Assembly (NCBI GenBank): GCA_037893245.1
Contig: JBAIAA010000315.1
Coordinates: forward strand, 930,001 to 994,000
Direction: 5' to 3'
DNA: 64,000 nucleotides
From: Crossaster papposus
Lineage: Eukaryota; Echinodermata; Asteroidea; Velatida; Solasteridae
Positions 16,700 to 62,824 of this stretch are shown here, piece after piece; within the stretch, counting starts at the first letter, position 1, and the number at the start of each line of letters is the position of its first letter. The position numbers were made by a program, and so were the translations under genes. The notes below the pieces were generated by a model. It made no database searches. It had not been told where the DNA came from and was given only the letters and a program-made list of their open reading frames with translations.

Positions 16700-16794
16700 T
16701 ATATAAGAACGGCCCTGATTTCAATTTCCCCACACTCTGCAATCTCAGCCCGCCAATTTGTCGAAAACTCGCCTCTTCGCAAAGAACCCGAAAG
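16700..16794 (+). promoter_or_regulatory. Promoter and 5' UTR exon of peptide gene A
   Basis: TATA box TATATAAGAACG at 16700. The non-coding first exon probably starts about 30 nt downstream and ends at 16794 in AACCCGAAAG/GTAAGA. The donor context matches the ACCGAAACG/GTAAGT of the other three copies. The intron runs to the acceptor TTTCAAACAG at 17818. Confidence 0.7.
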
Positions 16795-16884
16795 GTAAGA
16801 CCTACAATTTTGACTTCTCTTATTTTTCTTAACATGAAAACTATAAAGAAACAGTTTGTAGCCTTATCTATAGAAGCGTAATGG

Positions 16885-17065
16885 TGTAGTCTTCATCCGA
16901 GCGGACAATCACCTTCACACTGAGGCCAGAAAGCATACCTGCAATTTTATTGAAACCATCCTTGAGAGAGAGTCCATCTGTTGCATCATCAAAGTGGCGT
17001 TGACCACTTGCTCCTACTGGCAACTAGTCAAATACTCAAAATTGCACTATTAAAACAGACTCAAG
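16885..17065 (-). other. Coding-like fragment inside gene A intron 1
   Basis: The minus strand reads GQRHFDDATDGLSLKDGF and then NKIAGMLSGLSVKVIVRSDE in one frame. A degraded relative lies at 10709-10905. It may be a relic exon or part of a transposon protein; I do not recognise the family. Confidence 0.3.
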
Positions 17066-17137
17066 CGTAGCCGTGTTTGTAAAGGTCATTTCAATGCAAG
17101 TTTTTTTTCTCTGTCTCTTTTAATTGATGATGATGAT

Positions 17138-17351
17138 CCAATTCGCGCCGAGATGCGAGATAATTTTTTTTAAACGAAACTCGATCAGAGGCGGATTCAG
17201 GCCGATGGTACCGGGAAGCACACCCACGCATTTCCGGCCTTGCTCGCTGTTGACAGACATTTCCGGCCTTGCTCGTGACGTGTTTATGCATCATCCGTCT
17301 TGAATCTGGGAACAAGTTTGCGTGTGTTATACGTTCTCCAGCGCGAACCGG
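17138..17351. mobile_element. piggyBac-like MITE, degraded copy 3
   Basis: CCAATTCGCGCCGAG start and CCAGCGCGAACCGG end, TTAA at 17352-17355 on the right. Interior matches copies 488-720 and 3157-3390. Lies in intron 1 of gene A. Confidence 0.75.
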
Positions 17352-17827
17352 TTAACACAGGAATGCGCCGATACAAACGACGTGATTCACGCCGCGATTC
17401 TAGAATATTCGTCATTACAGATCAAATTTGTCTATTAAGCTGTTGTATTAACCATTATTAAAACTTGTGTTAAATATATTAGTCTGATGTGTGCTTGGCA
17501 CCAGACTAATTCATTTAGCATAAGTTTGAAATTGATTAATATTAGATGAATTCAATCTCTGGGATCTTTTGGCAACAGCTTTGACGAATTTGAACTATAA
17601 TGACGAATATTCCCCCATAAATGTGACCAAAGCTTGAAATTCAACGGTAAATGTCCATGGTTTGGTAAAAGCGTGTGATTTTTTTTTCAGACGAAATTTA
17701 ATGTGAGATTTGGTGTATTTAATTGAGAAATGGTTTAAACCTATATTACACTGTACCTTTTAAAACATTTATTTGGGTGTGAATTTACACTTTAAACTCA
17801 ACTTTGTCTTTCAAACAGAAAACTAAA

Positions 17828-19231
17828 ATGGCTGCTAAGATGTTCTTTGTGATCCTTGCTTTGGCCGTGATGACCGCCTTCGTCATGGCGAACGAAGACG
17901 ACGCCGACTTTGAAGGTGCCCTGTTTGAAATGACGAAGAGGGGAAGAAAGGGGCGGGGCAGAAAGACTAGTCCTTTTTACGGTAAGTAATCCACTGAAAT
18001 TACAAGAGAACGACAGAACGTACGAGAGTTTATAAGAAACCTATATATAACCCCAGGCACCTCGAATAAAGAAGGTTTAACGTGTAAAGCGAGTAATCGT
18101 TTTTTTTTAAATAGTTTGTTTGGACGATAGAGTTATAGCTATAGCTTTATGGTTTAAACGATGTTCTTTTTACAAATTTACAATTTGTGAACGACATAAT
18201 TATACAAATTGGGAAAAGAAGAGCGAACAAAATATATATTCGTCATGCGTAAGTTTAGATTAGTCATTCCATTGTTCTCGATCGTATAGCGCTAGTCATT
18301 CTAAACCGTAAATCATAATAGTATGGCGGTCGTCGCATATATGTCGCATACGTGTACGTACGTTTACGTCCGCACACATCAGCGCAAAGGTTATGCACTA
18401 CGGGGAGTTTTTGGGCCGGGCCTTTTCTTCTCGATTGTTAGCCAGTCACGTTGCAAACTGACGCTCACGTCGAACATTGGTCCCCCCTACTTTTCTTCAA
18501 CATTTGAGATAGCCGTCTATGTTTTCATATATTCAAAAATTATTTTCGAATTTGCTATTCACATGTTACGGCCGTTTCATGGTCTTGGTGAAAACAAAGT
18601 ATTATAGAAAACACAGTATTTTAGAAAACCAAATTAACCACACCTTAAAAGTCCAATACCATACGGCGGCATTCCAACCTTTATGCGCGAGATTTGCACG
18701 GTTTATAGACCACGTGCCCTCTGTTTTACATCTATATTCAAATGTGCCCGTAAATATGCGCACGCAACGTGTTTTACATCAATTTGGTTAAGAGGCGACA
18801 TCACAGGTCACATAATGGCGTCACATAATGGCGTGACCTGTGGCGTCACTCCTCAACCAAATTTTATGCAAAACACGATGTGTGCACATATTGCCGGGCA
18901 CATTTAAATACAGATGTAAACACGTGACGTCAGAGGGCACAACGTCTATAGAACGTGTACGTTATTTTGTATCCTGTGCGATAATCTATATCTCATCGCT
19001 ATAAAACCCCTTCGGTAAAAAAGAATATAAAATGTGAACAATTCGATATCTTGGGGTAAAAAATATATCTACTGGGATGAAATATTTGAGTATTACCATT
19101 GTAGTCTATTGGTTGTCTTACGTTTATCTTGTCCTGTTTTCAACTTTGCTATAGCGTGTAATAATGCTTTTGGAGTCCCCGGATGCGTCTGCGACAAAAG
19201 AGAGCTGGGAGATGAGCCTGTGATATGCTAA
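17828..19231 (+). CDS. Peptide gene A: secreted cationic four-cysteine peptide precursor
   Basis: Coding exons 17828-17981 and 19155-19231 (phase 1 junction, GTAAGT donor, TATAG acceptor), 76 residues. Residues 1-21 are a signal peptide (MAAKMFFVILALAVMTAFVM-A). Residues 22-36 are acidic (NEDDADFEG...). KR at 37-38 is a likely convertase site. The predicted mature part, 39-76, starts GRKGRGRKTSPFY and has cysteines spaced C-x8-C-x-C-x11-C, enough for two disulfides; net charge about +3. This layout is typical of antimicrobial or other host-defence peptides; a neuropeptide or toxin-like role is possible. The family is not one I recognise. The tail of A (DKRELGDEPVIC) is the most divergent of the four and ends directly on the last Cys. 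The ATG is preceded by a 9-nt UTR piece in the same exon (starts 17819). The same gene structure occurs in B, C and D. Confidence 0.82.
18690..18965. mobile_element. Palindromic MITE in gene A intron 2
   Basis: TTTATAGACCACGTGCCCTCTG is mirrored by CAGAGGGCACAACGTCTATAGAA. The arms meet near 18825 at TCACATAATGGCG repeated twice. Same family as 5685-6281, 29315-29440 and 51528-51725. Confidence 0.8.
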
Positions 19232-19993
19232 TAGAAGACCCGGACATCACCTGCGATTGTGACTACACTTATATTAAATTAAATATTGTGTAATTTTAGG
19301 GACTAACGATTTGGTAAACGTACAACAAGTAGAGTTAAGATATAGGTCTAATCCCTTGTCAGATACACTGATGGTAATTGAAGTATTTGTTTTGTTTTAA
19401 GTGCACAAAGTTCACGCTAAGAAAGGAATTCGTTTTCTTCAAAAACCCAAACTGCATTATAACTGTATAACTTTCGTCATTATTGACGTTTTGTTTGGTA
19501 TTAAAGCTTTCAATAATGTAAGGGCATTTTTTAATTTCTGGCTTTGTCTTTGTTTGTAGGCTTTATGAGGCGATTTTATAGGCTCCCAAACTGGGGAAGT
19601 CCAGTCACATTCTGACACCTGTTGTGCTTCAGAAACATTTAATCGGGTAAAATAAATTGTAAAGTTCGAAAGTGTTCATTTGCCTTCATTTCTGTTTGCT
19701 TCTCAGCCGAAGACGAAGATGAAGCAAAGTTGTTATGAAGACAACAACTTATGTAAAAACCAAAACAATGTAGAGGAAACATATTGTGGTGAGAATATCC
19801 CAGATAAAATCGGCGGGTTCATATTATGTTAAACCTTCACACCTATACATTCAATGGTTAGCGAAACTACCCCCTAAAATAGTGTCTTTTACTATTTTAT
19901 CTAAACAAATAATTAGTTGAATGTATTAAATACCGATCCATGTGCACGGAGTATCCTTGTACGTGTACATGTACTGTTCATTAACGTGAGCGT

Positions 19994-19999
19994 AATAAA
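19994..19999 (+). terminator. Polyadenylation signal of gene A
   Basis: AATAAA in the context GAGCGTAATAAAATATGCAG, conserved at the matching place in B (30506), C (53122) and D (62819). The implied 3' UTR is about 780 nt and includes the conserved block TTTTAGGGACTAACGATTTG near 19297. Confidence 0.7.
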
Positions 20000-20177
20000 A
20001 TATGCAGAAAAAAATTAACCAGTAAATGGGTGTATGTAAATTAATCAATCGATTAGGCCCCGCCTATTGACGTTGCATTCGGCACGTCACGTTGGTGCGC
20101 AGTGTGTTGTTTTTTGTTTTTCTTTGCGCCAACACGTGACCCTCTATAAACTACCATAGGGACTGTCGTATACTTAC

Positions 20178-20390
20178 CAGGGATGTAGTCGAGTCCATCC
20201 CAAGTCCCTGCAAGTCCCTGTAAGTCCCTGCAAGTCCACCACAAGTCCTTCAGTTCCAATTCACATCGCAAGCTATTCAAATCAGTTTTGACAAAAGGAT
20301 TCCTTTCATGACTGCCTTCATGAAGGGACTTGTGACTGGCTTCACGAAAGGACTTGTGAAAGGACTTGCAGGGACTCGACTACAACCCTG
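20178..20390. mobile_element. hAT-like MITE downstream of gene A
   Basis: Ends CAGGGATGTAGTCGAGTCC / GGACTCGACTACAACCCTG. Flanks ATACTTAC (20170-20177) and TTACTTAC (20393-20400) form a near 8-bp duplication, the hAT size. Subterminal CAAGTCCCTG motifs are repeated. Closely related to 30573-30806. Confidence 0.8.
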
Positions 20391-22764: not shown

Positions 22765-22772
22765 GTTCGTAC

Positions 22773-23525: not shown

Positions 23526-23526
23526 G

Positions 23527-26645: not shown

Positions 26646-27591
26646 CTCTTGTATTTTGATCCTAGACATGTTCATACCTTTTCCTGCCTAACCAGATATA
26701 TAACAGCTTTTATTTTGCGTACTAGTATTTGCTTCATTTTTTTATAAAGGTAGCCCCGACCCAACCTTCAAAAGTAGCAAGTAAATACTGTAAATCTGAA
26801 GCATTTACTCATTTTTATTTATACCAAATGGAGCAAATACTAATATTCTAGCAAATGCTGGAAAATGAAAAGTAAATACTTGTATTAGTATTTAGCAAAG
26901 ACTTTCCGGGTAAATATTTTGCTTCGTTTGTACTCATACAGATGCCAGTAAAAGCTTGAACATTGGTAGTAAAAGCAAATGCTAGTTTGTATTCATACGA
27001 CCCAACGTCAATGTCGTTTTGGTTGAAGTCAAAATTCCCCCTTTTCGGAGGTTATGGCGGACACTGTATGGAAGCTATGAGCTCTAATGGTTACTTCATT
27101 TGTAATTACAATTTACCCACTCAAAATAGCGCCCTCCTGATATATCCACCGTAAAGGCCGGTTCATACTTCACGCGATGGTTATTGAATGCGATGCGAAC
27201 TTTTGCTTCGAAAATTTGCCCGAGGGGAAATGTGTTTAACCTTTGCAAAATCGGAGCTCGAAAACCTGCCACTGACGTCACGGTGACAAATTCGCGTTCG
27301 CGCCGAGCATGAATCGGTCTTATTGGCTGATTCTCCGTCGTTCATATTCTAGTGTCACGACGTTTCTCGAAAAAAAATAGTCTTCCATTTGTTACAGCAA
27401 TTATTTCCTCGAATGCATGTGCGTATGCACCGTCTTTTTACCATTTTGGCTCCTTAATACCACAGCAAGACTCACGCCTGATCGAGTCTGTGGGTTTAAT
27501 AAAAATGCTTCGATGTGTTTTGTTAAGTCATGTGGTTATTACTAATTAAGATGGTTTGTGATGCGTGTCCTCTTCAAGTATACGATGCAGG

Positions 27592-27733
27592 CCAATGCCC
27601 ATCGTTGGGAATGCCAGATGGGCTAAGATTCTTAAGAACCTATAAAAGGGCGACGTTGGATCTGTCCCAGTCACAGGACGATTCTACAAGCCCAAAAGAA
27701 AAGTCGACTCTCACCTCTCGCCAAACCGAAACG
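27592..27733 (+). promoter_or_regulatory. Promoter and 5' UTR exon of peptide gene B
   Basis: CCAAT at 27592, a kappaB-like GGGAATGCCA at 27607-27616, TATAAAAGGG at 27641, an initiator-like TCCCAGTCA about 28 nt on, and a non-coding exon ending at 27733 in ACCGAAACG/GTAAGT. All are conserved in C and D. The kappaB reading is inference from the motif only. Confidence 0.75.
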
Positions 27734-28988
27734 GTAAGTCTTCTTTCCTTTTTTTTCTCGGAATGTGACAATCATCGCGGCGCTGAGCCCAACGCCAACT
27801 TAAAACAACTCTTAGTTGTAGAGTTGTTATGGTCGTATCAACTCTTAACGAGCGATGTAAACAACTTTGTATATGTATTACTTAGGTACACACGTAGACT
27901 TGTAACTGGACTTGACTCACGTCGGAATTGGTGTCGGAATTGGTGTCGGAATTGGTGTCGGAATTGGTATCGGAATTGGTATCCGAAACACCTTTCCCCC
28001 AACATTATGGCAGATTCACGTATGTCTGTGATGCCAACTTAGTTTTGTTCTGTTGTGCCCAGGTATCGCACTATACGCCCATCAGTTGTTGTACCGTAAA
28101 CATGACGGCAGATTCAGTCTTTTCTTTTTCCTATTTTAATTTAAATAGGTCTATTGTTGTTCCGTATTCCAATGTCGTAGTAGTCTTTATGCAAGCAGTG
28201 ATTTGTTGGTTTTACTCTATTTGGGCTTTTTCTTAAACTGTTTAGTTTGTTTAGGAATAAGTGATAGAAGTGAAACCAGCAATCTCATTAAATCACGGCG
28301 CCGAAGCCAGCACGCAACAACTCTTAGAGTTTTTATAGTCGCATGGTTACTGTTAACGACTGATGTAATCAACTTGTTATAATATAGCCTGACAGTTTAC
28401 CTCTGGTAGCAGGCTTCCGGACCCCTCGAATTGGACAATTGTAGCGAGTAAAAGTCAGGGTTAAAAAAGAAAGGTATATTAATGTCTTAAGTAAAAATGT
28501 TACTAAGCATCTCAATTGATGGAAACTGAACAATCGCATTACGTGAAAGAGAAATATCGTGCCAAACAAACTGACCTCTCACTTTCAAACACCTAAAAAA
28601 CACGCAGACTCGTGGAATCGGAGCACTCGTATCAAGATAAAAACTTATGGAATAATTTTGTGGCGGTCATTGGGTAAAAACGGAAACTTCAATAGTAGGC
28701 TAAAATGTATTTTGGGACGCATAATTTGTTTGAATAAACTGGAAGGATTTTTTGTTTATTTACAAACAAATCTAAAACGCTTTTTTTTACGTGATCGAGA
28801 CGAGCCTGAATAATTATAGAATCCATCTGATGTAGGCAGGTACATCTTTGCGGCGTTCATTATGTTTGTTCTCACGCAAGCCTTTTGCAACATAATTATA
28901 TGCACAGCAATACATTTTATTTATTAAAACCTCTTCAGCTCAACTTGTATTTGACATACATGCTCTGTATCTTTTCATCGCATCCTAG
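27734..28988 (+). other. Intron 1 of gene B
   Basis: GTAAGT donor and TCCTAG acceptor. Contains four to five tandem 'gtcggaattg' units (27921-27985), fewer in C and D, and sequence otherwise matching gene C intron 1. No exon seen inside. Confidence 0.7.
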
Positions 28989-29001
28989 AACGAAAACCGA
29001 A

Positions 29002-29864
29002 ATGGCTGCTAAGATGTTCTTTGTGATCCTTGCTTTGGCCGTGATGACCGCCTTCGTCATGGCGGACGAAGAAGCCGACGACTTTGAAGGTGCCATGTTT
29101 GAAATGGCGAAGAGAGGCAAAAAGGGCAGGAAGACTAGTGCTTTCTATGGTAAGTAATCGACTGAAATTACAAGGAATTATGGCAACAAAGAGTTGTATC
29201 TTAATATCAAGTGTTTGTTTATTAAGCCAGTTTGGTCAAATTGTTCCCTTCCGTTGTCAATTCTTAATACATGCAACACAATTAACGTGGTCAAAAATTT
29301 TGACAACGTGACCTGGTTGTGTGCCCGGCGGTATGCGCACGCATCTGGTTCTAAAAACATTTGGGCGACATCAGAGCTTGGTCACATAATTCAAAAGCGT
29401 TTTGGCCTGCGACATCACTCCTCAACCTAATTGTATGCATGGGGACCAAGTTGGCTCACCCCTAACTTTCTCTTGCACCCGTCGAGAGACAGGTGTGAAC
29501 TATTGATTGAAAATCAAACACCCGACCGCTGGCCAGGGTTGTCTGTCATTATTTTCTTATAGAGTTGTAACGAGTCACACAATTACGCGTGAGCTGGCTG
29601 TCAATAGACGTGGTCGTAGCCCATGGAAGCCCGTTTCTGACACGGTCTATAAGTGGCTCGGGTCGAGTCGAGTCATTCTGATGAGGAACTTGAGTCGAGT
29701 CATTTGCCTGTAGGAACTAGAGTCGAGTCGAGTCATCGAATCGAGATATTACAACTTATTTGTTGTCCTGTTTTCTACTTTTTTTAGAGTGTCCCGGTGA
29801 GTGGGGAGTCGGATCCTGCGTCTGCAACAAAAATAAGCCAGGAATACCCGTGGTATGCTTATAG
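29002..29864 (+). CDS. Peptide gene B: secreted cationic four-cysteine peptide precursor
   Basis: Coding exons 29002-29149 and 29788-29864 (phase 1; donor GTAAGT, acceptor TTTTTAG), 74 residues. Signal peptide 1-21 is identical to A. Acidic propiece 22-36 (DEEADDFEG...), KR at 37-38. Predicted mature peptide, 36 residues, begins GKKGRKTSAFY and has C-x8-C-x-C-x10-C followed by a final Leu; net charge about +4. The exon starts at 28989 with a 13-nt UTR piece before ATG. The protein is identical to that of gene C. The long frame continuing past the donor is intron. Role inferred as host defence from the signal/acidic/KR/basic/cysteine layout; no homolog recognised. Confidence 0.85.
29308..29440. 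mobile_element. Half of the palindromic MITE in gene B intron 2
   Basis: Left arm (GTGCCCGGCGGTATGCGCAC and on to CCTAATTGTATGCA) is present, but the right arm found in gene C is missing. The sequence jumps directly to the block that in C starts at 52084, so a deletion is likely in B. Confidence 0.7.
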
Positions 29865-29949
29865 GAACGCCCGGACCTCACCCGTGATAGCTCCATGGAA
29901 ACGGACGCTCCCAGACGATGTATATGCTGAATGTTACAATACTTAATTA

Positions 29950-30055
29950 TTTAATTCAATGTTGTGTAATTTTAGGGACGACTGATTCGGTAAACGTACA
30001 ACATGTTGTGTAATTTTAGGGACGACTGATTCGGTAAACGTACAACATGAACATG
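29950..30055 (+). repeat. Tandem doublet in gene B 3' UTR
   Basis: A unit of about 44 bp (TGTGTAATTTTAGGGACGAC ... GTAAACGTACAACA) occurs twice in B and twice in C (52578-52665), but once in A and D, so the doubling came before the B/C duplication. Confidence 0.8.
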
Positions 30056-30505
30056 CAGAGTTTAGATATAGGTGCATGTATACGCCTCGTCAGAGAAACT
30101 AATGGTAATTGAAGTATCGAGAGAAAAAAAATGCACAAAGTTCACGCTAACAATAATTTGTCAAACTCCAAAACCCCATTACTACTGTATGACGTTCGTC
30201 ATTATTTGCGTTTTGTTTGATGTTAATAAGCTCTCGATACTCTGAGTACTACCACAACAGCTTGGAGGAAACATTAATTATACAATGTGATGCGAATGTC
30301 CTAAATGAAACCGGCTGGTTCATATTTTGTTAAACGTTTAAACCTACTGCCAACGGTTAACGAAACTATACCCATAACAAATACAGGTAGTCTTTACTCT
30401 GTCACCTTATAAGTGAATTTGTTGAATGTATTTGGCCTAATACCGATCCATGTGCACGAGAGTATACACGATCATTGTATATGTACAGTTCATTAAGTTG
30501 AGCGT

Positions 30506-31262: not shown

Positions 31263-31942
31263 AGATACGAACTTTGTGATGTGGCCGTTTCAAGCCTTTA
31301 GTGAGGTTGGTTAAACGCCGCAAAAAGGCACAACCCGGGGGAATAGCCCTGCACAAGAAATTGAGTGAACCCAATAGCGACTACACTGACACAAGCGTGG
31401 CCTTCGTCTTACTCAAGAAAGCATGAATTTGACCACATGTTTTGGTAACTTTCTCCTGTGGGACTTTAACTTGGGCACGAACAGTATCGATTTCCAAACC
31501 CAGATATTTAATTGTTTGCACTGGCCCTTCAGTTTTCTCGTGCGCTAAGGGGACGTTTAGCTTGGTACCCATAGTTCGGAAAACATCTAATAACTCTGCA
31601 CACGAGGAGGACGTGTTGCCCACGAACAAAAAATTATCTAGATAGTGAGTGACTAAAGATACATCAGCCATACGCTTAACTTGAAATTCCAAAAATGAAC
31701 TAAACTTCTCGAAAAGCGAACAAGAAATGGCACAGTCCATTGGCATACATTTGTCAAAGTAGAAATGGTTGTCAAAGACAAACCCCAGCAATTTATAATC
31801 AGCAGGTGAAAGTGGCAACAAACGAAATGCAGACTTAATGTCGGCTTTCGCTAACCAAGCCGTTTCCCCTACGGTCATAACCAAATCCACAGCCTCGTCA
31901 AACGAGACATAGTGAACTACACAATATTTATGAGGTGTAGTA
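31263..31942 (-). pseudogene. DIRS-like retrotransposon reverse transcriptase relic
   Basis: The minus strand reads VVHYVSFDEAVDLVM, then AWLAKADIKSAFRLLPLSP (RT motif A with Asp), MPMDCAISCSLFEKF, and HYLDNFLFVG, where motif C is YLDN instead of YLDD. It continues IKYLGLEIDT, then a TAG at 31378-31380, and goes on in frame as SLLGSLNFLCRAIPP and FLRRLTNLTKG. These blocks (ADIKSAFRLLP, CRA..PG.AFLRRL) are characteristic of DIRS/Ngaro elements, which use a tyrosine recombinase. The stop, the changed catalytic motif and the MITE at its 5' side show that it is inactive. Confidence 0.85.
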
Positions 31943-34499: not shown

Positions 34500-34542
<43 letters not shown>

Positions 34543-42200: not shown

Positions 42201-45200
42201 TGCCTAATTGCCTCGGACTAGTTGCCCCTCTGAAGGAGAGGGAGTGGGGAGGAGGGGGAGTGGAAAGGGGTGGGAGGGCGAGGGGAGGGGTGGGTGGGGG
42301 GGGGGGGGGGGGGCGAGGGGTGGGTGTGGAGGGGGGGCTGACGACATACCGGTAGTTATCCTCTTCATAAAAAGATATGTTATTCAAATGAGAATTTGTG
42401 TCATGGTCATTCGTTATATGACTTCTAAGACTAAGCAGTTCACTAATTAAATACTTGTAGTCAGAGTACAATACAGGCGTTGTTCATATTAATAATAATA
42501 ATAATGGTAAGGGGGAAGGGGGAAGGGAAAAGGGGAAAGGGGGGAGGGGGAACGGGGGAAAGGGGGAAGGGGGGAGGAGGGAAGGGGGGGAGGGGTGCTT
42601 GCAAAAAACACTTTATTTACACATTTGTTTCTGGCTTCTGGGCACCCAGAGTGAATATTTGATAGGGTTCTGAAAACAAGTTGAGTGTGTGTGAATTACC
42701 TCATATGGAGGAGGACAAACGGCAGGTCCTGTACCAGAATCAGCCTGTGGGCCATCATCCCAACTGGAACTGCTTTGTAGACTGTCTGAACCATTTAAGT
42801 GCGGACTCGAGAACAGCGGATGGGCCACCTGACATAGAAATCAAATCAAAATCACATTTAATTTTAAACAAATAACAATTTCTTTGGGTTATCTCTAAAA
42901 TATACTATCCATTTTAACACCGTCACAAGCGACCACCCCAACCACATTCGCCCTTGATGTGCAACTTAACTGACGACATACCGGTAGTTATCCTCTTCAT
43001 AAAAAGATATGTTATTCAAATGAGAATTTGTGTCATGGTCATTCGTTATATGACTTCTAAGACTGAGCAGTTCACTAATTAAATACTTGTAGTCAGAGTA
43101 CAATACAGGCGTTGTTCATATTAATAATAATAATAATGGTAAGGGGGAAGGGGGAAGGGGAAAGGGGGGAGGGGGACGGGGGAAAGGGGGAAGGGGGGAG
43201 GAGGGAAGGGGGGGAGGGGTGCTTGCAAAAAACACTTTATTTACACATTTGTTTCTGGCTTCTGGGCACCCAGAGTGAATAATTGATAGGGTTCAGAAAA
43301 CAAGTTGAGTGTGTGTGAATTACCTCATATGGAGGAGGACAAACGGCAGGTCCTGTACCAGAATCAGCCTGTGGGCCATCATCCCAACTGGAACTGCTTT
43401 GTAGACTGTCTGAACCATTTAAGTGCGGACTCGAGAACAGCGGATGGGCCACCTGGCATAGAAATCAAATCAAAATCACATTTAATTTTAAACAAATAAC
43501 AATTTCTTTGGGTTATCTCTAAAATATACTATCCATTTTAACACCATCACAGTACAAGCGACCACCCCAACCACATTCGCCCTTGATGTGCAACTTAACT
43601 GACGACATACCGGTAGTTATCCTCTTCATAAAAAGATAAGTAATTCAAATGAGAATTTGTGTCAGGTGCATTCGTTATATGACTTCTAAGACTGAGCAGT
43701 TCACTAATTAAATACTTGTAGTTAGCGTACAATACAGGCGTTGTTCATATTAATAATAATAATAATGGTAAGGGGGGAAGGGGGAAGGGGGAAGGGGAGG
43801 GGGGACGGGGGAAGGGGGGAAGGGGGGAAGGGAGGAGGGGGGAAGGGGGGAAGGGAGGAAGGGGGAAGGGGGAGGGGTGCTTGCAAAAACCACTTTATTT
43901 ACACATTTGTTTCTGGCTTCTGGGCACCCAGAGTGAATATTTGATAGGGTTCAGAAAAAAAGGTCACTAATGAATCAAAATCTTACTACTTTCTATGTTG
44001 CCGGATGCAGAAAACGTTTATGATTTAGAACGAGTGAAAAACAAACAAACACCACTGTTATTTTACTTTACGGGTAGACGCATATGCCTAATTGCCTCGG
44101 ACTAGTTGCCCCTCTGAAGGAGAGGGAGTGGGGAGGAGGGGGAGTGGAAAGGGGTGGGAGGGCGAGGGGAGGGGTGGGTGTGGGGGGGGGGGGGGGGGGG
44201 GGGGTGGGGCGAGGGGTGGGTGTGGAGGGGGGGCTGACGACATACCGGTAGTTATCCTCTTCATAAAAAGATATGTTATTCAAATGAGAATTTGTGTCAT
44301 GTGCATTCATTATATGACTTCTAAGACTGAGCAGTTCACTAATTAAATACTTGTAGTCAGAGTACAATACAGGCGTTGTTCATATTAATAATAATAATAA
44401 TGGTAAGGGGGAAGGGGGAAGGGGAAAGGGGGGAGGGGGGACGGGGGAAAGGGGGAAGGGGGGAGGAGGGAAGTGGGGGAGGGGTGCTTGCAAAAAACAC
44501 TTTATTTACACATTTGTTTCTGGCTTCTGGGCACCCAGAGTGAATAATTGATAGGGTTCAGAAAACAAGTTGAGTGCGTGTGAATTACCTCATATGGAGG
44601 AGGACAAACGGCAGGTCCTGTACCAGAATCAGCCTGTGGGCCATCATCCCAACTGGAACTGCTTTGTAGACTGTCTGAACCATTTAAGTGCGGACTCGAG
44701 AACAGCGGATAGGCCACCTGGCATAGAAATCAAATCAAAATCACATTTAATTTTAAACAAATAACAATTTCTTTGGGTTATCTCTAAAATATACTATCCA
44801 TTTTAACACCATCACAGTACAAGCGACCACCCCAACCACATTCGCCCTTGATGTGCAACTTAACTGACGACATACCGGTAGTTATCCTCTTCATAAAAAG
44901 ATAAGTAATTCAAATGAGAATTTGTGTCAGGTGCATTCGTTATATGACTTCTAAGACTGAGCAGTTTACTAATTAAATACTTGTAGTCAGCGTACAATAC
45001 AGGCGTTGTTCATATTAATAATAATAATAATGGTAAGGGGGAAGGGGGAAGGGGAAAGGGGGGAGGGGGGACGGGGGAAAGGGGGAAGGGGGGAGGAGGG
45101 AAGTGGGGGAGGGGTGCTTGCAAAAAACACTTTATTTACACATTTGTTTCTGGCTTCTGGGCACCCAGAGTGAATAATTGATAGGGTTCAGAAAACAAGT

Positions 45201-48200
45201 TGAGTGCGTGTGAATTACCTCATATGGAGGAGGACAAACGGCAGGTCCTGTACCAGAATCAGCCTGTGGGCCATCATCCCAACTGGAACTGCTTTGTAGA
45301 CTGTCTGAACCATTTAAGTGCGGACTCGAGAACAGCGGATAGGCCACCTGGCATAGAAATCAAATCAAAATCACATTTAATTTTAAACAAATAACAATTT
45401 CTTTGGGTTATCTCTAAAATATACTATCCATTTTAACACCATCACAGTACAAGCGACCACCCCAACCACATTCGCCCTTGATGTGCAACTTAACTGACGA
45501 CATACCGGTAGTTATCCTCTTCATAAAAAGATAAGTAATTCAAATGAGAATTTGTGTCAGGTGCATTCGTTATATGACTTCTAAGACTGAGCAGTTTACT
45601 AATTAAATACTTGTAGTCAGCGTACAATACAGGCGTTGTTCATATTAATAATAATAATAATGGTAAGGGGGGAAGAGGGAAGGGGGAAGGAGGGAGGGGG
45701 GACGGGGGAAGGGGGGAAGGGAGGAGGGGGGAAGGGAGAGGGGTGTTTGCAAAAACCACTTTATTTACACATTTGTTTCTGGCTTCTGGGCACCCAGAGT
45801 GAATATTTGATAGGGTTCAGAAAAAAAGGTCACTAATGAATCAAAATCTTACTACTTTCTATGTTGCCGGATGCAGAAAACGTTTATGATTTAGAACGAG
45901 TGAAAAACAAACAAACACCACTGTTATTTTACTTTAGGGGTAGACGCATATGCCAAATTGCCTCGGACTAGTTGCCCCTCTGAAGGAGAGGGAGTGGGGA
46001 GGAGGGGGAGTGGAAAGGGGTGGGAGGGCGAGGGGAGGGGTGGGTGTGTGGGGGGGGGAGAAGGGTGGGTGGGTGTGGGGGGGGGGGGGGGGGGGGGTGA
46101 AGGGGGGGGGGGGGGGGTGGGGGGGGGGGGGTGTTTGCAAAAAACACTTGATTTATAAATTTGTTTCTGGCTTCTGGGCACCCAGAGTGAATATTTGATA
46201 GGGTTCTGAAAACAAGTTGAGTGTGTGTGTGAATTACCTCATATGGAGGAGGACAAACGGCAGGTCCTGTACCAGAATCAGCCTGTGGGCCATCATCCCA
46301 ACTGGAACTGCTTTGTAGACTGTCTGAACCATTTAAGTGCGGACTCGAGAACAGCGGATGGGCCACCTGGCATAGAAATCAAATCAAAATCACATTTAAT
46401 TTTAAACAAATAACAATTTCTTTGGGTTATCTCTAAAATATACTATCCATTTTAACACCATCACAAGCGACCACCCCAACCACATTCGCCCTTGATGTGC
46501 AACTTAACTGACGACATACCGGTATTTATCCCCTTCATAAAAAGATATGAAATTCAAATGAAAATTTGTGTCATGTGCATTCATTATATGACTTCTAAGA
46601 CTGAGCAGTTCACTAATTAAATACTTGTAGTCAGCGTACAATACAGGCGTTGTTCATATTAATAATAATAATAATGGTAATTATTATTATTATACCTCCA
46701 AAACAGCACTTGGGGAGACAATCCCATAGAGATGTACACAAACTTTAAACAGTCCTAACTTGTTTACCCTAACCCTTTTGTCTAAGATCTTTAAAATTTG
46801 CTATTTAGACCAAAATCTGTCGTTCTAGGACAAAAATAACTCCCAAATATCGTTTTTTAGGGTAGGTAGACACTTAGGGAGACACTAAAATGTCTCCCTA
46901 AGTGCCACTGTCTCCTTATTACCTAAACACTTACGCTAATTTGTCTCCCCAGGTGCCTATTTGGAAGAATTACGCATTTCATTTGTATTCTTCCTAACCT
47001 GTCTGTTGTTAATTAATGCATTCTATGGTAATTTTCTCACCTGGTGCTCAAAAAGGGAGCGTGTCACACCATCAGTGTACCGGACGCAGTACTTTCCTGA
47101 TAAGAAAGCCACAAATTCAACTAATTAAACTTTAAAGGGATTACATGCAATTGGGAGTAGTGGGAGAGGAATGTTGAAAAGTATTTGTTGTTTACAGATC
47201 ATATATATTTTTGGTTCTGAAGGGGGGGGGGGGGGGGGGGGTGGGGGAAAGCAAGTTTAGGAAAAATGGCATTGTTTATTTACATGTGGTACATGTCATG
47301 GGGGGATGTAAGAGGGTATACAGCTGTCTTAATTTATGTGTGACAAATGGGATTCTACATTATGGATTACATTTCTTACCTACGGAACCCCTAATGTGAC
47401 ATATATCACGAATAGTAATCACCGTGACAAAATAAATTTAGTTTTGTATTTCTTGCCCACGAAATCATTTCGTGCCCACGAAATCATTTCGTGCCCACGA
47501 AATCATTTCGTGCCCACGAAATCATTTCGTGCCCACGAAATCATTTCGTGCCCACGAAATCATTTCGTGCCCACAAAATAATTTCCCGTGCGCTCGAAAA
47601 AATAATTTCCCGTGCGCTCGAAAAAATAATTTCATGAGCTCGAAATAATTTGTGCAATTGTTAGAAATCGGTTAAGTAAATATGTTTTACAGCACGGTCT
47701 TGACGCAAGGTTAACGTGAACCCACAAATTACGAGGGCATTCCATTTGTTTTCGTCATATGTCCTTTTAGAGGCTCCGCACTTACCTTTGGTAAAGGAGA
47801 TTATTACGGCAGGATACCATGATGAATCTGGAGGCCACAGTGCGATTACGTTCTCCCCTTCATGATGCTGGTGATTTGTCAAGGTTCCATCAAGACGACT
47901 ACTCCGTTTCATGTTTGTTATGGTAGTTCTGTCAGCCACACCTAGACTAGCTAGCTGTAACAAGACAACAATACAACAACAATATATCATTAAACTGATA
48001 ATACAAGTAAATATTAATAATTGTGGCTACTTATTTGTTTTATTATTTATACAATAACTACAATTAACTATTTCTTGTTCGCACGGTGCTCAACAACTCA
48101 TGCTTGCGTTGGCAAAATAAAGCAGTTAAATTTGGTTATAACTTCTATATTATTCTGAAATTAGGCATATTCACTTCCCACATCATCCTATAGACTAGAG

Positions 48201-49490: not shown

Positions 49491-49853
49491 ATACTCTTTT
49501 TTGAAAACGATTGTGTAGCTAGAATTTAAAGAGCTAATTAAATGCTTCCAGAATTAAAAATTGTTTGGTTTACCTTGGGTGACTGGTGTCTACGGAACTG
49601 TTGGTTCATATGCATGAAAAAATAGTCCTCCATTTGTTACAGGAATTATTTCCTCGAATGCATGTGCGTATGCACCGTCTTTCTTTACCATTTTGGCTTC
49701 TTAATACCAGAGCAAGACTCACGCCTGATCGAGTCTGTGGGTTTAATAAAAATGCTTCGATGTGTTTTGTTAAGTCATGTGGTTATTACTAATTAAGATG
49801 GTTTGTGATGCATGTCCTCTTCAAGTATACGATGCAGGCCAATGCCCATCGTT

Positions 49854-49979
49854 GGGAATGCCAGATGGGCTAAGCTTCTTAAGAACCTATAAAAGGGCGA
49901 CGTTAGATCTGTCCCAGTCACAGGACGATTCTACAAGCTAGAAGAAAAGTCGACTCTCACCTCTCGCCAAACCGAAACG
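49854..49979 (+). promoter_or_regulatory. Promoter and 5' UTR exon of peptide gene C
   Basis: GGGAATGCCA at 49854, TATAAAAGGG at 49888, non-coding exon ending 49979 at ACCGAAACG/GTAAGT. Almost identical to gene B. Intron 1 is 49980-51212. Confidence 0.75.
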
Positions 49980-51225
49980 GTAAGTCTTCTTTCCTTTTTT
50001 CCCAAAATGTGGCAATCATCGCGGCGCTGAGCCTAACGCAAACTTAAAACAACTCTTAATTGTGGAGTTGTTATGGTCGTATCAACTCTTAACGAGCAAT
50101 GTAAATAACTTTGTACATGTATTACTTAGGTACACACGTAGACTTGTAACTGGACTTGACTCACGTCGGAATTGGTGTCGGAATTGGTATCCAAAACACC
50201 TTTCCCCCAACAAAATGGCAGATTCACGTATGTCTGTGATGCCAACTTAGTTTTGTACTGTTGTGCCCAGGTATCGCACTATACGCCCATCAGCTTTTGT
50301 TCCGTAAACATGATGGCAGAATCAGTCTTTTTCTTTTTCTTATTTATTTAAAATAGGTCTATTGTTGCTCCGTATTCAAATGTAGAAGTAGTCTTTTTGC
50401 AAGCAGTGATTTTGTTAGTTTTACTCTATTGGGGCTTTTCTTTAAACTTCCGGGGGTTTTAGGACTAAGTGATACCTATAGAAGTGAAACCAGCAATCTC
50501 ATTAAATCGCGGTGCCGAAGTCAACGCCAACTTGAAACAACTCTTAAAATTGTTATAGTCGCATGGTTACTGTTAACGACTGATGTAATCAACTTGTTAT
50601 AACATAGCCTGACAGTTTACCTCTGGTAGCACTTCCGGACCCCTCGAATAGGACAATTGTAGCGAGTAAAAGTCGGGGTTAAAAAAAAAAAGGATATTAA
50701 TGTATTAAGTAAAAGCGTTACTAAGCATCTCAATTGATGAAAACTAAACAATCGCATTACGTGAAAGAGAAATATCGTGTGAAACAATCGACCTCTCACT
50801 TTCAAACATCCAAAAAACACGCGGACTCGTGGAATCGGAGCACTCGGACGTATCAAGATAAAAACTTATGGAATAATTTTGTGGCGGTCATTGGGTAAAA
50901 ACGGAAACTTAAATAGTAGACTAAAATGTATTTTGGGAGGCACAATTTGTTTGAATAAACTGGAAGGATGTTTTGTTTATTTACAAACAAATCTAAAATG
51001 ACTTTTTATTTTACGTGATCGAGACGAGCCTGAATAATTATAGAATCCATCTGATGTAGGCAGGTACATCTTCGCGGTGTTCACCATGTTTGTTCTCACG
51101 CAAGCCTTTTGCAACATAATTATATGCACGGCAATACATTTTATTTATTAAAACCTCTTCAGCTCAACTTGTTTTTGACATAAATGCATTGTATCTTTTC
51201 ATCGCATCCTAGAACGAAAACCGAA

Positions 51226-52481
51226 ATGGCTGCTAAGATGTTCTTTGTGATCCTTGCTTTGGCCGTGATGACCGCCTTCGTCATGGCGGACGAAGAAGCC
51301 GACGACTTTGAAGGTGCCATGTTTGAAATGGCGAAGAGAGGCAAAAAGGGAAGAAAGACTAGTGCTTTCTACGGTAAGTAATCCACTGAAATTACAAGGA
51401 ACTATGGCAACAAAGAGTTGTATCGTAATATCAAGTGTCTGTTTATTAAGCCAGTTTGGTCAAATTATCCTCTTCCGTTGTAAATTCTTAATAACACAAT
51501 TACCGTGGTCAAAAATTTTGACAACGTGACCTGGTTGTGTGCCCGGCGGTATGCGCACGCATCTGTTTGTTATACATTTGGGTGACATCAGAGCTTGGTC
51601 ACATAATTCAAAAGCGTTCTGACCTGCGACATCACTCCTCAACCTAATTGTATGCAGAACACGATGCGTGCGCATACCGCCGGGCACAATTGAATAATAG
51701 ATGTAAACAAAGAGCACATCATTTTGTGGACCATTAGAAGGTTTTTAAACAATATTGCGCATGTAGGCAAATACAACAATAGTCTGGTGCCTGACTACCT
51801 CCATGCTTCAATGTAGTGTTGGTTTTATATGCGGTGTCTGGGGTAAAAAACAAAAAAATCAATTCGTCACTGCGTGATTTTTAAAAACGCGATTTTTGTT
51901 TACCCTCTAAATTTAAACTAGTATAATCTTATCAAGCCAAGTATTTAGTATCACATCACATCATAAGTAGGTATTTTTTCGGTAGTGGGAAAGTAATTAT
52001 TCACATCGAATATTAAAATACGTAATACACGAGTTTCCAATCCACTATTACTATTGAAAACGAGGTTGAAAATATAGTAAGCCATGGGGACCAAGTTGGC
52101 TAACCCCTAACTTTCTCTTCACCCGTCGAGAGACATGTGTGAACTATTGATTGAAAATCAAACACCCGACCGTGTGCTGGCCAGGGTTGTCTGTCATTTT
52201 CTTATAGAGTTGTAACGAGTCACACAATTACGTGTGAGCTGGCTGTCAATAGACGTGGTCGTAGCCCATGGAAGCCCGTTTCTGACACAGTCTATAAGTG
52301 GCTCGGGTCGAGTCGAGTCATTTGCCTGTAGGAACTAGAGTCGAGTCGAGTCATCGATTCGAGATATTACAACTTATTTGTTGTCCTGTTTTCTACTTTT
52401 TTAGAGTGTCCCGGTGAGTGGGGAGTCGGATCCTGCGTCTGCAACAAAAATAAGCCAGGAATACCCGTGGTATGCTTATAG
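51226..52481 (+). CDS. Peptide gene C: identical precursor to gene B
   Basis: Coding exons 51226-51373 and 52405-52481, phase 1, 74 residues. The protein is identical to gene B; a few synonymous changes (for example AAGGGAAGAAAG against AAGGGCAGGAAG) show that these are two loci. Exon 2 of the transcript starts 51213 after CATCCTAG. Intron 2 (51374-52404, 1,031 bp) keeps the complete palindromic MITE which is half-deleted in B. KR at 37-38, mature part of 36 residues with C-x8-C-x-C-x10-C-L. Function inferred as for B. Confidence 0.85.
51528..51725. mobile_element. Palindromic MITE in gene C intron 2
   Basis: GTGCCCGGCGGTATGCGCAC on the left is mirrored by GTGCGCATACCGCCGGGCAC at 51669-51688; the centre lies near the CATAATTCAAAAGCG block. 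Confidence 0.8.
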
Positions 52482-53121
52482 ACACGCCCGGACCTCACCC
52501 GTGATAGCTCCATGGAAACGGACGCTCCCAGACGATGTATATGCTGAATGTTACAATACTTAATTATTTAATTTAATGTTGTGTAATTTTAGGGACGACT
52601 GATTCGGTAAACGTACAACATGTTGTGTAATTTTAGGGACGACTGATTCGGTAAACGTACAAAATAAACACGCAGAGTTTAGATATAGGTGCATGTATAC
52701 GCCTCGTCAGAGAAACTAATGGTAATTGAAGTATCGAGAGAAAAATATGCACAAAGTTCATGCTAACAATAATTTGTCAAACTCCAAAACCCCATTACTA
52801 CTGTATGACGTTCGTCATTATTGGCGTTTTGTTTGGTGTTAATAAGCTCTCGATACTCTCAGTACTACCACAACAGCTTGGAGGAAACATTAATTATACA
52901 ATGTGGTGCAAATGTCCTAAATGAAACCGGCTGGTTCATATTCTGTTAAACGTTTAAACCTACTGCCAACGGTTAACGAAACTATACCCATAACAAATAC
53001 CGGTAGTCTTTACTCTGTCACCTTATAAGTGAATTTGTTGAATGTATTTGGCCTAATACCAATCCATGTGCACGAAAGTTTACACGATCATTGTACATGT
53101 ACTGTTCATTAAGTTGAGCGT

Positions 53122-54595: not shown

Positions 54596-54604
54596 AGTGG
54601 GTAA

Positions 54605-57460: not shown

Positions 57461-57579
57461 GGGAATGCCAGATGGGCTAAGCTTCTTAAGAACCTATAAA
57501 AGGGCGACGTTGGATCTGCCCTAGTCACAGGACGACTCTACCAGCTAACTGAAATCTCACCTCTCGCCAAACCGAAACG
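57461..57579 (+). promoter_or_regulatory. Promoter and 5' UTR exon of peptide gene D
   Basis: GGGAATGCCA at 57461-57470, TATAAAAGGG at 57495, non-coding exon to 57579 at ACCGAAACG/GTAAGT. CCAAT lies just upstream (GGGCCAATGCCC). Layout as in B and C. Intron 1 runs 57580-58905. Confidence 0.75.
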
Positions 57580-58115: not shown

Positions 58116-58918
58116 CGCACGTATGCGCTATGTGTGCATTTACTACAGACTTGGGCCAAGTCAAACTTGTAACGAGCCGCTGAAATTCTTGTCGGGTCTA
58201 TTCATTTTACTAAGAAGTGACTCAAGTCAAGTTTAAGAAGATCGAGTCATTTCGAGTTACGATTATTTAAACACAATAATAACAAAAATTAAAAAGAGAG
58301 AACAAGTACTTTGTTTGCATTTTAAAAATAAATAATAAATCACCCGAAGCTAACAAATTAGAAAATGCGTTTCCAAATTCCGGTCTTTTATCGTCTTTTC
58401 TTTTTGGGTATTTGAGTGAATATTTGTTTTTGCTCAAAACGAAATGTTTAGACTCAACTTGCCGATGTGCACCTTTCTCAGCATTGTTTCTCAGGAACTT
58501 TTTCACATGCTCTAGAAAAAAATGTGTTTATACAAGGATTTCAAGTGTTAGTCATTTTTGTTTCACCCAGATTTGTGTGCATAAACATAAATTGCTTTAT
58601 GTCTCACATAAATTCCTAATGAGATTCTCAATCGTGGTTTAGGCAAAAAAAGATATTACGGGGCTTTCTTGTTGGTGATGTGTGTATAATATATAAATAT
58701 ATACATACACACGTTAAACAAAGTACTCTAATTTCTTTCTGACATAATAAAACTGACATCTTAAACATCTGTTTATTTCTTGCAACATACACGTAATTAT
58801 AATATGCATGGTGGTATATCTTATTTATTACAACCTCTTCAGCTTAACTTGTATTTGACTTATTAATACATTGTATCTTTTCATTGCATCCTAATTTTAT
58901 ACTAGAGCGAAAAACAAA

Positions 58919-61888
58919 ATGGCTGCCAAGATGTTCTTCGTGATCCTTGCTCTGGCCGTGATGACCGCCTTCGTCATGGCGAACAAAGACGACGACTTCG
59001 AAGATGCCGAGCTGTATGAAATGGTGAAGAGAGGAAGGAAGAATAAAAAGGCTCGCTACTTTAGTAAGTGTCCACTGGAAACATTATACAAATATTTACT
59101 AGTAAAACTAGCTTCCCGAGGTGATCCACGGAGCATTCTATTTTCCCGAGGCGAAGCCGAGAAAAACGGAATGCACCATGGATCGCTGAGAGAGGCTAGT
59201 TTTACTACACAACGAGATAAAGCAATCAACATTTTGTTTTATACCACCTCACCCAGAGATTCTGCTTGGTTTAAAGATTTTTTAAAATTATTTAAACTTA
59301 AATACACGTACAGTTAAAATAGACTTCTATTTCAATGAACAAATTCAATGGTGGGAAATGTATTTGTTTTCTTCCAAACTACCCCTTCACAACATGTTTT
59401 GACCATAGATATAGAATTAAAATTTTAATTATATATCTATGGTTTTGACCCAGCTCTGTAGCGCTGGATCCTCGGAACAATACGCGCTACGCGCTACGCG
59501 CTACGCTCGACGCGCACGCCCGCATGTATCTGCACTCCATATAAATATCAAATAAGTTAAGAGGGCCTAATATTTCGATCTTAACAAGATCTTCTTTAGA
59601 GACAAAATGGCTGTGTACAAACAAACATATATAGGGCAACATACAGAATGATGCACATCATGGTTGGCGGAAGAAACACAAAAGAAAAAGCACAGAGTCC
59701 AGTAGAACAAATAACTAGATCAAAAGTGCGTTTACTACATGCATACTGGGCGACGCCATTAGTCATGTGAACAGGGGTGCGTTCCACTCACGCCACTCAC
59801 GTTGCCAACGTTTGCCAACGTTCGCGTGAGTGGAACGCAATGTGCGCCAATTATGTTAGCGAACGTTAGGCGGCGAAAACGGCGAACGACATTACGAGCT
59901 GTTCGCTGTTGGCCAGTGACGTATTCTAAAGATAGCAAAGAGGTTAGCAGGCGGCAGTGTTCTTTTTACGGTTTTTATACTTTTCGTTATAAACGGTGAA
60001 TTGTTTTGAGCAGTCAAAGGAGTCTTTTAAAGACAAATAACGAGCTGGACAATGCAATTGGTGCAGCAGCAAACCAAACAATGTCACTGTCACTGGGCGC
60101 CGCCATTTTGAAAACGTATTTGTTAAAACATCGTTCCATTTCAACTGGCGCCAACTCAAAACGTTGGCGAACGTTCACGCGAACAGTTCGCGTATTAGTC
60201 GAACGTATCCCAGGGTTACAGTTTGTAAGCGTCACGATCTGCCGCTTCACTGCATCTACTATACCGTTGTTTGTACAAACGTTTTTCTTTTGAAAACATT
60301 CCAATTTGGTAATAATGCTTTTATAGTGGGTGCGTACGTGCGTATGTTAAAAATACATACATTTTGTAATTGAAAATGTCACGTTAACAGGGCAACGACC
60401 CTGGGCCCAATTTCTTGGCTCTGCTTACCGTTAGCGAAAAATCCCTGCTTACTATAGCAGAAAATTCGGTGCTTACGGTAAACGTATTTCACGCGTTAGC
60501 AAGGAATTTTGGTCTCTGAGCATGCGTACATCCCGTAACTTAGGATTCTGTGCTTACCGGGTGAGCAAATAATTTTTCTGCTAGCGCGGTTAGCGGAAAA
60601 TGGTGACCGTAAGCGAGGAATTCTGTGGTTAACAGAGCCATGAAATTGGGCCCTGTTCATGTGACTTGTTAGTATTGATTATATAGCAGTTGCGTAGCGC
60701 GTCCGTGCACAACAAAAACATTCCGTGCACAACAAAAACATTCCGTGCACAACAAAAACATTCCGTGCACAACAAAAACATTCCGTGCACAACAAAAACA
60801 TTCCGTGCACAACAAAAACATTCCGTGCACAACAAAAACATTCCGTGCACAACAAAAACATTCCGTGCACAACAAAAACATTCCGTGCACAACAAAAACA
60901 TTCCGTGCACAATAAACTCGAACGGTACGCGCGCGCGCTTCCGATCTGGGCCCAATTTCTTGGCTCTGCTTACCGTTAGCGTAAAATCCCTGCTTACTAT
61001 AGCAGAAAATTCGGTGCTTACGGTAAACGTATTTCACGCGTTAGCAAGGAATTTTGGTCTCTGAGCATGCGTACATCCCGTAACTAAGGATTCTGTGCTT
61101 ACCGGGTGAGCAAATATTTTTTCTGCTAGCGCGGTTAGCGGAAAATGGTGACCGTAAGCGAGGAATTCTGTGGTTAACAGAGCCATGAAATTGGGCCCTG
61201 GTTATTTATTTGTCTGATACATATGGCTATGACATATGTAATATAGTGCCATTAGTAAAGTACTTTGGTTGCTAATGGTTAAATAATTGAGCCCACGAAA
61301 TATCCTGAATACTATCTCAGCCCCCTGGGAGGAATACACGCTGCCGTTTCGGCGCAACGCCGCTAATAACAAACATATCTGCCCTTATCGGTACCCATTT
61401 AGGTACTCATTTCAATTCTGGGTGGGAAGGAGCAATTTGTGACAACGTTCCTTGCTAAATAGTGCATCGGCATAGTTCAATATATTAAACCGATTGTACA
61501 TTTTGTGATAAAAAGCACCAAAATAGCACATTATATCTATAATTGCATACAAAATCATTTATAGATTGGGAGGCACGTGAAATTTAACTTGTATCGGCCT
61601 GGACAGCCATTTTTTTTAAATGGCCGCCACAGAACATGAGTAACATGACTGAATATTATGTTTTAGTTTCTCTCGATTTTATTTGGTAACAGCTTTCGGG
61701 CCGACCCAAACCCACAACCTACAGCTTTAATTACAGGCGTGCAAACTGCCATGCTCTATACTGTACTGGTTATAATTTTATGACATTTTTTTCTCTTGCT
61801 TCCCATTTTGCTAGAATGTCCCGGTGAGTTTAATGTCGGAGAATGCGTCTGCGACAGAAAACAGGGAAACATACCCGTGGTATGCTAA
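58919..61888 (+). CDS. Peptide gene D: secreted cationic four-cysteine peptide precursor
   Basis: Coding exons 58919-59063 and 61815-61888, phase 1 (donor A/GTAAGT, acceptor GCTAG), 72 residues. Signal peptide 1-21 is identical to the other copies. Acidic propiece NKDDDFEDAELYEM, KR at 37-38. The predicted mature part, 34 residues, starts GRKNKKARYFK and has C-x8-C-x-C-x10-C, ending on the last Cys; net charge about +5, the highest of the four. Exon 2 of the transcript begins 58906 after TACTAG. The open frame running past the donor to 59317 is intron with a small MITE. Intron 2 is the longest of the family (2,751 bp) and full of repeats. Function inferred as for A to C. Confidence 0.85.
59098..59212. 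mobile_element. Small palindromic MITE in gene D intron 2
   Basis: TAGTAAAACTAGC...GATCCA on the left is mirrored by TGGATCGC...GCTAGTTTTACTA on the right, with TTCTCGG/CCGAGAA-type inner arms. Confidence 0.8.
59400..59830. repeat. Short hairpins and CGCGCTACG repeat
   Basis: A hairpin at 59398-59455 (ACCATAGATATAGAATTAA / TTAATTATATATCTATGGT), tandem CGCTACGCG at 59486-59510, and a hairpin at 59779-59829 (GCGTTCCACTCACG / CGTGAGTGGAACGC). The remainder to 60402 has related GTTGGCGAACG phrases but no gene. Confidence 0.7.
60403..60653. mobile_element. GGGCCCAATTTC MITE, copy 1
   Basis: GGGCCCAATTTCTTGGCTCTG / CAGAGCCATGAAATTGGGCCC ends, interior with GCTTACCGTTAGCG / CCGTAAGCG. 251 bp. Nearly identical to 60948-61198. 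Confidence 0.9.
60701..60912. repeat. 20-bp minisatellite, 10 perfect copies
   Basis: TTCCGTGCACAACAAAAACA repeated ten times (first copy differs by one base) plus a partial. Each carries the GTGCAC palindrome. The 20-bp period makes all frames open, so the long cysteine-rich frames on the minus strand are artefacts. Confidence 0.95.
60948..61198. mobile_element. GGGCCCAATTTC MITE, copy 2
   Basis: Same length and same orientation as copy 1, differing at only a few sites. The two MITEs bracket the 20-bp minisatellite. Confidence 0.9.
61199..61814 (+). other. 3' part of gene D intron 2
   Basis: No repeat partner or exon recognised before the acceptor at 61814. Confidence 0.5.
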
Positions 61889-62818
61889 TAGAAAGGCCCG
61901 GACCTCACCCGTGATAGCTCTGTGGAAACGGATGCTACCACAGCGACTGCACAAACTGGATGTTTAAACAACCTTTAATTAAAATCAATATTGTGTAATT
62001 TTAGAGACGAATAATTCGGTAAACGTACACAATGTAAAGTTTTAGAAATTTTACTATAATTCCACGGCTCTGTCTGTCCTTCTTGGTGTCTGTCTCTGTG
62101 TGTGTATAACCGTATTTCGATTATCTCCAGAACTAGACACCGTATGAAGTTGAACATCGGCAGGTGTATTGCTCAGGACCCAATAATGTGTAATTTTACG
62201 TGAACTTGTTTGGATAAGCTATTCTCGAAAAAAAAACTGAAAATAAAGCAACAATCTTGGAGGCCTATATAAACCCGCAGACGTGACGGTATGGATCGCC
62301 ACGCACTGTTGCAAATTTTGAACTATATACCGCCACGCTTAATTGCGGATCTAGCGAAGGCCATCAAGAAAGTCGCCGGTTCGGAAAAAGGCATATTATT
62401 GTTACCTGGGAAATGCACAGGTAATTGAAGTATTGAAAGGAAAAACAATGCACGCAGTTTACGCTAACAAAGGATTGTGCCAGACTCCAAAACACCATTA
62501 TTAATTACTGTATGACTTTCGTCATTATTGGCCTTTACCTTGGTGTTAATAATATTACTCTTACTAGTAACCGCAAAAGCTTAAGTTAGAGGAAACATTA
62601 TACAATGTGGTGGAACCTAGTTAATGTCCTGTTAAACCTTTAACCTACCTTCAACGGCTAACGAAACTATACCTGTAGAAAAGTTGTATTTTAATATCAC
62701 ACCAGTCACAAGTAAATTTGTTGAATGTATTTGGTGTAATACAGATCCATGTACACGAAGATATACGAGATCCTTAATTGTACATTCATTGTTTATTCAA
62801 TTGAGCGTAATAAAATAT

Positions 62819-62824
62819 GCAGGG
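62819..62824 (+). terminator. Polyadenylation signal of gene D
   Basis: AATAAA in GAGCGTAATAAAATATGCAG, about 930 nt after the stop and matching the other copies. The 3' UTR contains the family block TTTTAGAGACGAATAATTCG (61997) and an inserted stretch (about 62045-62400) not seen in A to C. Confidence 0.7.

Follow-up and report, generated by a model that had tools for sequence, protein, structure and literature searches.

The cysteine-rich antimicrobial peptide PpCrAMP of the starfish Patiria pectinifera, reportedly described by Kim et al. in 2018, is said to be 38 residues long, with four cysteines toward its C-terminus and basic clusters toward its N-terminus. We take a four-cysteine C-terminal part with a C-x-C centre, together with a basic head, to be what defines its family. 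In a review passage, PpCrAMP is cysteine-rich and antibacterial, has a predicted β-hairpin of two strands, and is termed the only known sea star antimicrobial peptide (PMC11767717); the review passages also give the coelomic epithelium as its source tissue and treat it as the prototype of an echinoderm family. The strongylocins and centrocins of sea urchins are likewise echinoderm antimicrobial peptides; as the review passages describe them, strongylocins have six cysteines and centrocins are made of two disulfide-joined chains, unlike the peptides considered here. We analyzed a stretch of 64,000 nucleotides from the starfish Crossaster papposus (GenBank assembly GCA_037893245.1, contig JBAIAA010000315.1, positions 930,001 to 994,000), referred to below as the window, in which four genes on the + strand, numbered 1 to 4 in their order, encode small precursors with a signal peptide, an acidic propiece, a KR pair, a basic head and a four-cysteine tail. 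These genes very probably constitute a tandem cluster of the starfish CrAMP (PpCrAMP) family, whose cationic peptides would act on microbes.

To place these precursors among known proteins, we searched with the gene 2 precursor and with profiles. The single-sequence search retrieved four proteins. Two bear the name Patiria miniata: LOC119735398 (P0001) and LOC119735486 (P0002), with 62 and 58% identity over 99% of the query and E values of 6e-19 and 7e-18, respectively. With a profile of the window and P. miniata sequences (A1), eight of 188 candidates reached the limit of E 10, Acanthaster planci LOC110986500 (P0005; E 2e-17) now being included, and a wider profile including the A. planci protein and another relative, P0007 (A3), matched 17 proteins among 696 candidates at the same limit. 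The four-cysteine tail is present in eight of these 17 relatives and missing from nine, which look like exon 2 run on into the intron, or cut. Six of the 17 carry an organism name, and all six are starfish (Patiria miniata, Acanthaster planci, Asterias amurensis and Asterias rubens). One of the six has a functional name: CrAMP-2 of A. rubens (UniRef; P0012, LOC117301867), found with profile A3 at E 1.8e-17. P0007 shares 61% identity with this protein, and the comparison of A1 with the whole CrAMP-2 precursor by hhalign gave a probability of 98.6%, with an alignment that reaches the C-x-C region.

CrAMP-2 resembles the window precursors in its similar signal, acidic propiece, basic head and four cysteines, the middle two of which form C-x-C, and has KRG at residues 36–38; it differs in its cysteine gaps (6, 1 and 14 residues versus 8, 1 and 10 or 11 in the window) and in its longer head, which contains a GPLTKDD stretch. 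The two P. miniata proteins follow the window plan, with gaps of 8, 1, 12 and 8, 1, 10, and differ at residue 15 of the signal, which is L and not M. The A. planci protein has the same plan, KRG and the four cysteines, but its head is shorter and its gaps are 7, 1 and 8. KRG after the acidic stretch is found in the four window copies and in all eight relatives with a full tail, which also have the basic head and four cysteines, with gaps of 6–8, 1 and 8–14. The likeness to PpCrAMP, as far as the review passages convey it, is to a cysteine-rich starfish peptide, itself described as antibacterial, located in the coelomic epithelium and predicted to form a β-hairpin. The two P. miniata loci are presumably on one contig (28,030,815 bases), and the Asterias relatives P0009, P0011 and CrAMP-2 all list a longest contig of equal length, 15,767,093 bases, a hint that such genes are clustered in Asterias as well.

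An earlier note on this DNA had read the four genes as an undescribed-looking family and as a host-defence cluster, to be checked by BLASTP and profile searches of the precursors. Such searches did find starfish relatives, but one of them is already named CrAMP-2, so the family is not new. We rejected an undescribed family on this match and on the review passage that places PpCrAMP in an echinoderm peptide family; judged by their sequences, the window genes are new members of the known starfish CrAMP family. The host-defence part of the proposal, in contrast, is supported by the name of the A. rubens relative and by the antibacterial activity that the review passage gives for PpCrAMP.

To evaluate the region downstream of the KR pair separately, a profile of the post-KR parts of the window and P. 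miniata precursors was compared with the six other tailed relatives and, for each, with 500 cysteine-keeping and 500 full shuffles. The A. planci protein, P0007 and P0009 beat all of their shuffles, indicating that the homology is not confined to the signal. When a tail-only profile was used, P0007 and P0009 again beat all shuffles, and the A. planci protein beat all except one of 500 full shuffles; the scores of P0010, P0011 and CrAMP-2 were reached by 6, 6 and 5 of the 500 cysteine-keeping shuffles and by 2, 1 and 1 of the 500 full shuffles, respectively.

Several observations weigh against the CrAMP assignment. The post-KR score of CrAMP-2 was reached by 154 of the 500 cysteine-keeping and 105 of the 500 full shuffles, that of P0010 by 69 and 20, and that of P0011 by 40 and 31. 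Since its post-KR part does not stand out directly, the connection of CrAMP-2 with the window relies on the signal, on the layout of the precursor and on P0007 and P0009 as intermediates. BLASTP of gene 4 against CrAMP-2 aligned residues 1–25 only, and the cysteine spacing is not constant between genera. The net charge of the tail from the first cysteine onward is close to zero (−2, +1, +1 and −1 for genes 1–4). An AlphaFold2 model of P0001, calculated with eight sequences, is of low confidence: it places strands at residues 50–52 and 62–65, with a pLDDT of 68–73 in the tail, but its mean pLDDT is 64.9 and its pTM 0.27. Finally, the link to PpCrAMP runs through the database name CrAMP-2 and the reviews, PpCrAMP itself being compared by description.

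The common plan proposed for the four + strand genes was borne out by a coding anatomy present in all four copies. Their parts are the following, in positions of the window:

16700..16707, + strand: gene 1 TATA box (TATATAAG)
16730..16794, + strand: gene 1 putative non-coding exon 1 (start assumed about 30 bases past the TATA box; donor aligned with genes 2–4; weak for gene 1)
17819..17981, + strand: gene 1 exon 2 (signal, acidic propiece, KR, basic head), ATG at 17828
19155..19231, + strand: gene 1 exon 3, coding part, four-cysteine tail C-x8-C-x-C-x11-C
27641..27648, + strand: gene 2 TATA box (TATAAAAG)
27670..27733, + strand: gene 2 putative non-coding exon 1 (start assumed)
28989..29149, + strand: gene 2 exon 2, ATG at 29002
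29788..29864, + strand: gene 2 exon 3, coding part, C-x8-C-x-C-x10-C
49888..49895, + strand: gene 3 TATA box (TATAAAAG)
49917..49979, + strand: gene 3 putative non-coding exon 1 (start assumed)
51213..51373, + strand: gene 3 exon 2, ATG at 51226 (protein the same as that of gene 2)
52405..52481, + strand: gene 3 exon 3, coding part, C-x8-C-x-C-x10-C
57495..57502, + strand: gene 4 TATA box (TATAAAAG)
57524..57579, + strand: gene 4 putative non-coding exon 1 (start assumed)
58908..59063, + strand: gene 4 exon 2, ATG at 58919
61815..61888, + strand: gene 4 exon 3, coding part, C-x8-C-x-C-x10-C

Exon 2 encodes an identical 21-residue signal (MAAKMFFVILALAVMTAFVMA) in the four copies, followed by an acidic propiece with a net charge of −4 or −5, KR at residues 37–38 and the basic head, while exon 3 encodes the C-x8-C-x-C-x10/11-C tail in every copy. 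The precursors of genes 1–4 are 76, 74, 74 and 72 residues long, and the parts after KR carry net charges of +3, +4, +4 and +5; these values agree with the 72–76 residues and the charges of +3 to +5 that had been put forward. Exon 2 starts 9–13 bases 5′ of the ATG and stops one base into a codon in all four genes, which confirms the phase 1 junction. The start of exon 3 was placed at the AG two bases ahead of the first cysteine codon, the frame-keeping site, and splicing of the window genes at these junctions is a prediction. Although the earlier note counted four peptides, and the four genes are indeed present, only three distinct peptides are encoded, because genes 2 and 3 share one protein sequence; their coding sequences differ at 3 of 225 bases. 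Each of the two genes lies in one arm of a duplication that spans 3 kb or more (27372–30400 and 49617–53016), 91–94% identical by BLAST and cut off on one side by the edge of the query. Intron 2 measures 638 bases in gene 2, 1031 in gene 3, where it has an extra stretch, and 2751 in gene 4, the longest of the four. Within this gene 4 intron, a 20-base unit is repeated in tandem about 11 times at 60702–60916. Polyadenylation-type signals (ATTAAA or AATAAA) lie 3′ of genes 1, 3 and 4, that of gene 4 at 62809, near the end of the region marked in the earlier note (62824), and neither was present 3′ of gene 2 in the scanned stretch 29860–30500.

Regarding the promoters, a scan of the four upstream stretches gave nine TATA matches, four of which were used as the TATA boxes of the genes. 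A GGTAAG donor is located 85–95 bases past each of these four boxes (95 in gene 1), a layout that suggests a short non-coding exon 1. For genes 2–4, BLAST shows a clearly common promoter region, in line with the proposal of a TATA promoter followed by a non-coding exon. Upstream of exon 2 of gene 1, however, there was no BLAST match in the other copies and no shared 18-mer within two mismatches, so its TATA box and exon 1 are placed by alignment; exon 1 is putative throughout.

The copies match each other in exon 2 DNA at BLAST E values of 2e-40 or better. In the six frames of the window, the pattern C-x8-C-x-C-x9–12-C occurs four times, always inside these genes, and 60 windows simulated with a first-order Markov model contained 0.22 occurrences on average and never more than two; a chance origin of the cysteine pattern was rejected on this basis. 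A tblastn search (six family sequences as queries, E limit 1) recovered both exons of the four copies and no fifth copy in the window. It also gave five short, weak matches (E 0.17–0.94), including an antisense match inside gene 1 exon 2 and another, likewise antisense, at 49956–50003 near gene 3 exon 1.

What the sequences show directly is the anatomy of the genes and their homology to the protein named CrAMP-2; for the window copies, we infer splicing, signal and KR cleavage, the disulfides, the site of expression and the antimicrobial action. In the proposed mechanism, each gene would have a TATA promoter of its own and yield a transcript of three spliced exons, and the 21-residue signal would direct the precursor into the secretory pathway, where the acidic propiece may offset the charge of the cationic peptide. 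Cleavage after KR would release a peptide of 34–38 residues in which a basic head precedes a tail with two disulfides, the latter probably a β-hairpin. The released peptide may act on microbes in the coelomic fluid or at epithelia, most likely through binding to negatively charged membranes.

The combination of a signal and KR would also fit a neuropeptide or hormone precursor, with KR as a prohormone-convertase site and the disulfide-bonded peptide acting on a receptor, and the antimicrobial role is itself a predicted one. However, one relative is named CrAMP-2, the head is strongly basic and variable, and the tail varies in spacing and sequence among copies and species, a kind of variation that is unusual for a receptor ligand. 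In addition, P. miniata and A. amurensis each have two listed paralogues. We consider a hormone-type precursor very improbable.

The segments of the CrAMP-type precursors differ in how they have changed, and this bears on whether the peptides have kept the function of the family. The signal segment differs between copies at 0–3 of 63 bases and at none of its 21 residues; the conserved part is this segment and not all of exon 2, because the propiece and head encoded by the same exon do change. For three pairs, the nonsynonymous rate (Ka) of the tails was 0.52, 0.60 and 0.37 against synonymous rates (Ks) of 0.54, 0.53 and 0.08, and that of the propiece and head was 0.19, 0.40 and 0.39 against 0.52, 1.52 and 1.04, all of them based on small numbers and given without a significance test. 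A tail Ka close to or above Ks suggests relaxed or diversifying evolution of the tail, and, together with its near-zero charge, speaks for CrAMP-derived secreted peptides that have acquired another function in this species (for example, as an opsonin, an adhesive or a protease inhibitor). Against this, the substitution counts are tiny, Ka lies below Ks for the propiece and head in the three pairs, and the plan and overall charge match the named family; a change of function seems unlikely to us. Within the CrAMP reading, a further possibility, which we regard as less likely than not, is that tandem expansion, with a signal near-frozen even at silent sites and a tail changing at about the silent rate or faster, has generated CrAMP variety through segment-wise evolution, and that at least one copy may have a new target. 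Segment-wise evolution is known for cone snail and frog skin peptides.

The cluster adds members to the family and no new kind of system. It shows how a starfish CrAMP cluster is laid out in the genome, with individual TATA boxes, a predicted phase 1 intron before the first cysteine and uneven evolution of the segments, and it indicates that cysteine spacing within the CrAMP family varies across starfish. This anatomy would be useful for locating CrAMP genes elsewhere and for studying the diversification of starfish defence peptides.

The position of the intron may be shared with the relatives. Near the expected junction, the nine tail-less relatives read R, S or G followed by K, and the window copies read GK, GK, GK and SK, which is what a phase 1 N-GTAAG donor would give if translated through. 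P0013 is identical to CrAMP-2 as far as DDME, after which it reads S and K in place of T and C, consistent with A-GT versus A-CN. Given that the junctions were picked by eye in a K/R-rich stretch and the codons of the relatives were deduced from residues, a shared phase 1 intron just 5′ of the first cysteine is suggestive only.

Searches of other collections gave no informative match. Pfam returned nothing above the cut-off for the three distinct window precursors (one sub-threshold match, E 0.058), and NCBIfam returned, for the eight members of profile A4, only two sigma-factor models, one member each (E 0.007–0.008). A pattern search of prokaryotic genome contigs gave 138 matches, none confirmed, and tblastn over phages gave no match; in both, records near the genome of the window may have been left out. 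In the PDB, the 27-residue tail of gene 2 had one match, not usable (E 2.6), and profile A4 matched 8erw_A (E 3e-05) and 9e78_5S (E 0.027) at profile positions 10–42 and 8–46, which correspond to the signal and propiece and not to the tail. In the literature, five short peptide strings of the family had no occurrence, and neither had four locus names or the name PpCrAMP-like; the word CrAMP-2 led to two papers, which by title and abstract deal with bacterial transport of host peptides and with modelin-5.

Other features were noted in the window. At 2799–2875 there is an Rfam tRNA match of 36.3 bits, absent from the ARAGORN output (bacterial code). Between genes 2 and 3, a reverse transcriptase fragment lies on the − strand at 31381–31890 (RVT_1, E 1e-13). 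An open frame of 1089 residues on the − strand at 37674–40943 spans 873-base direct repeats and has weak Pfam matches below the cut-off; it is probably a repeat rather than a gene. In the region 40800–46800, a unit of about 630 bases that includes long G-rich runs is present in as many as nine copies.

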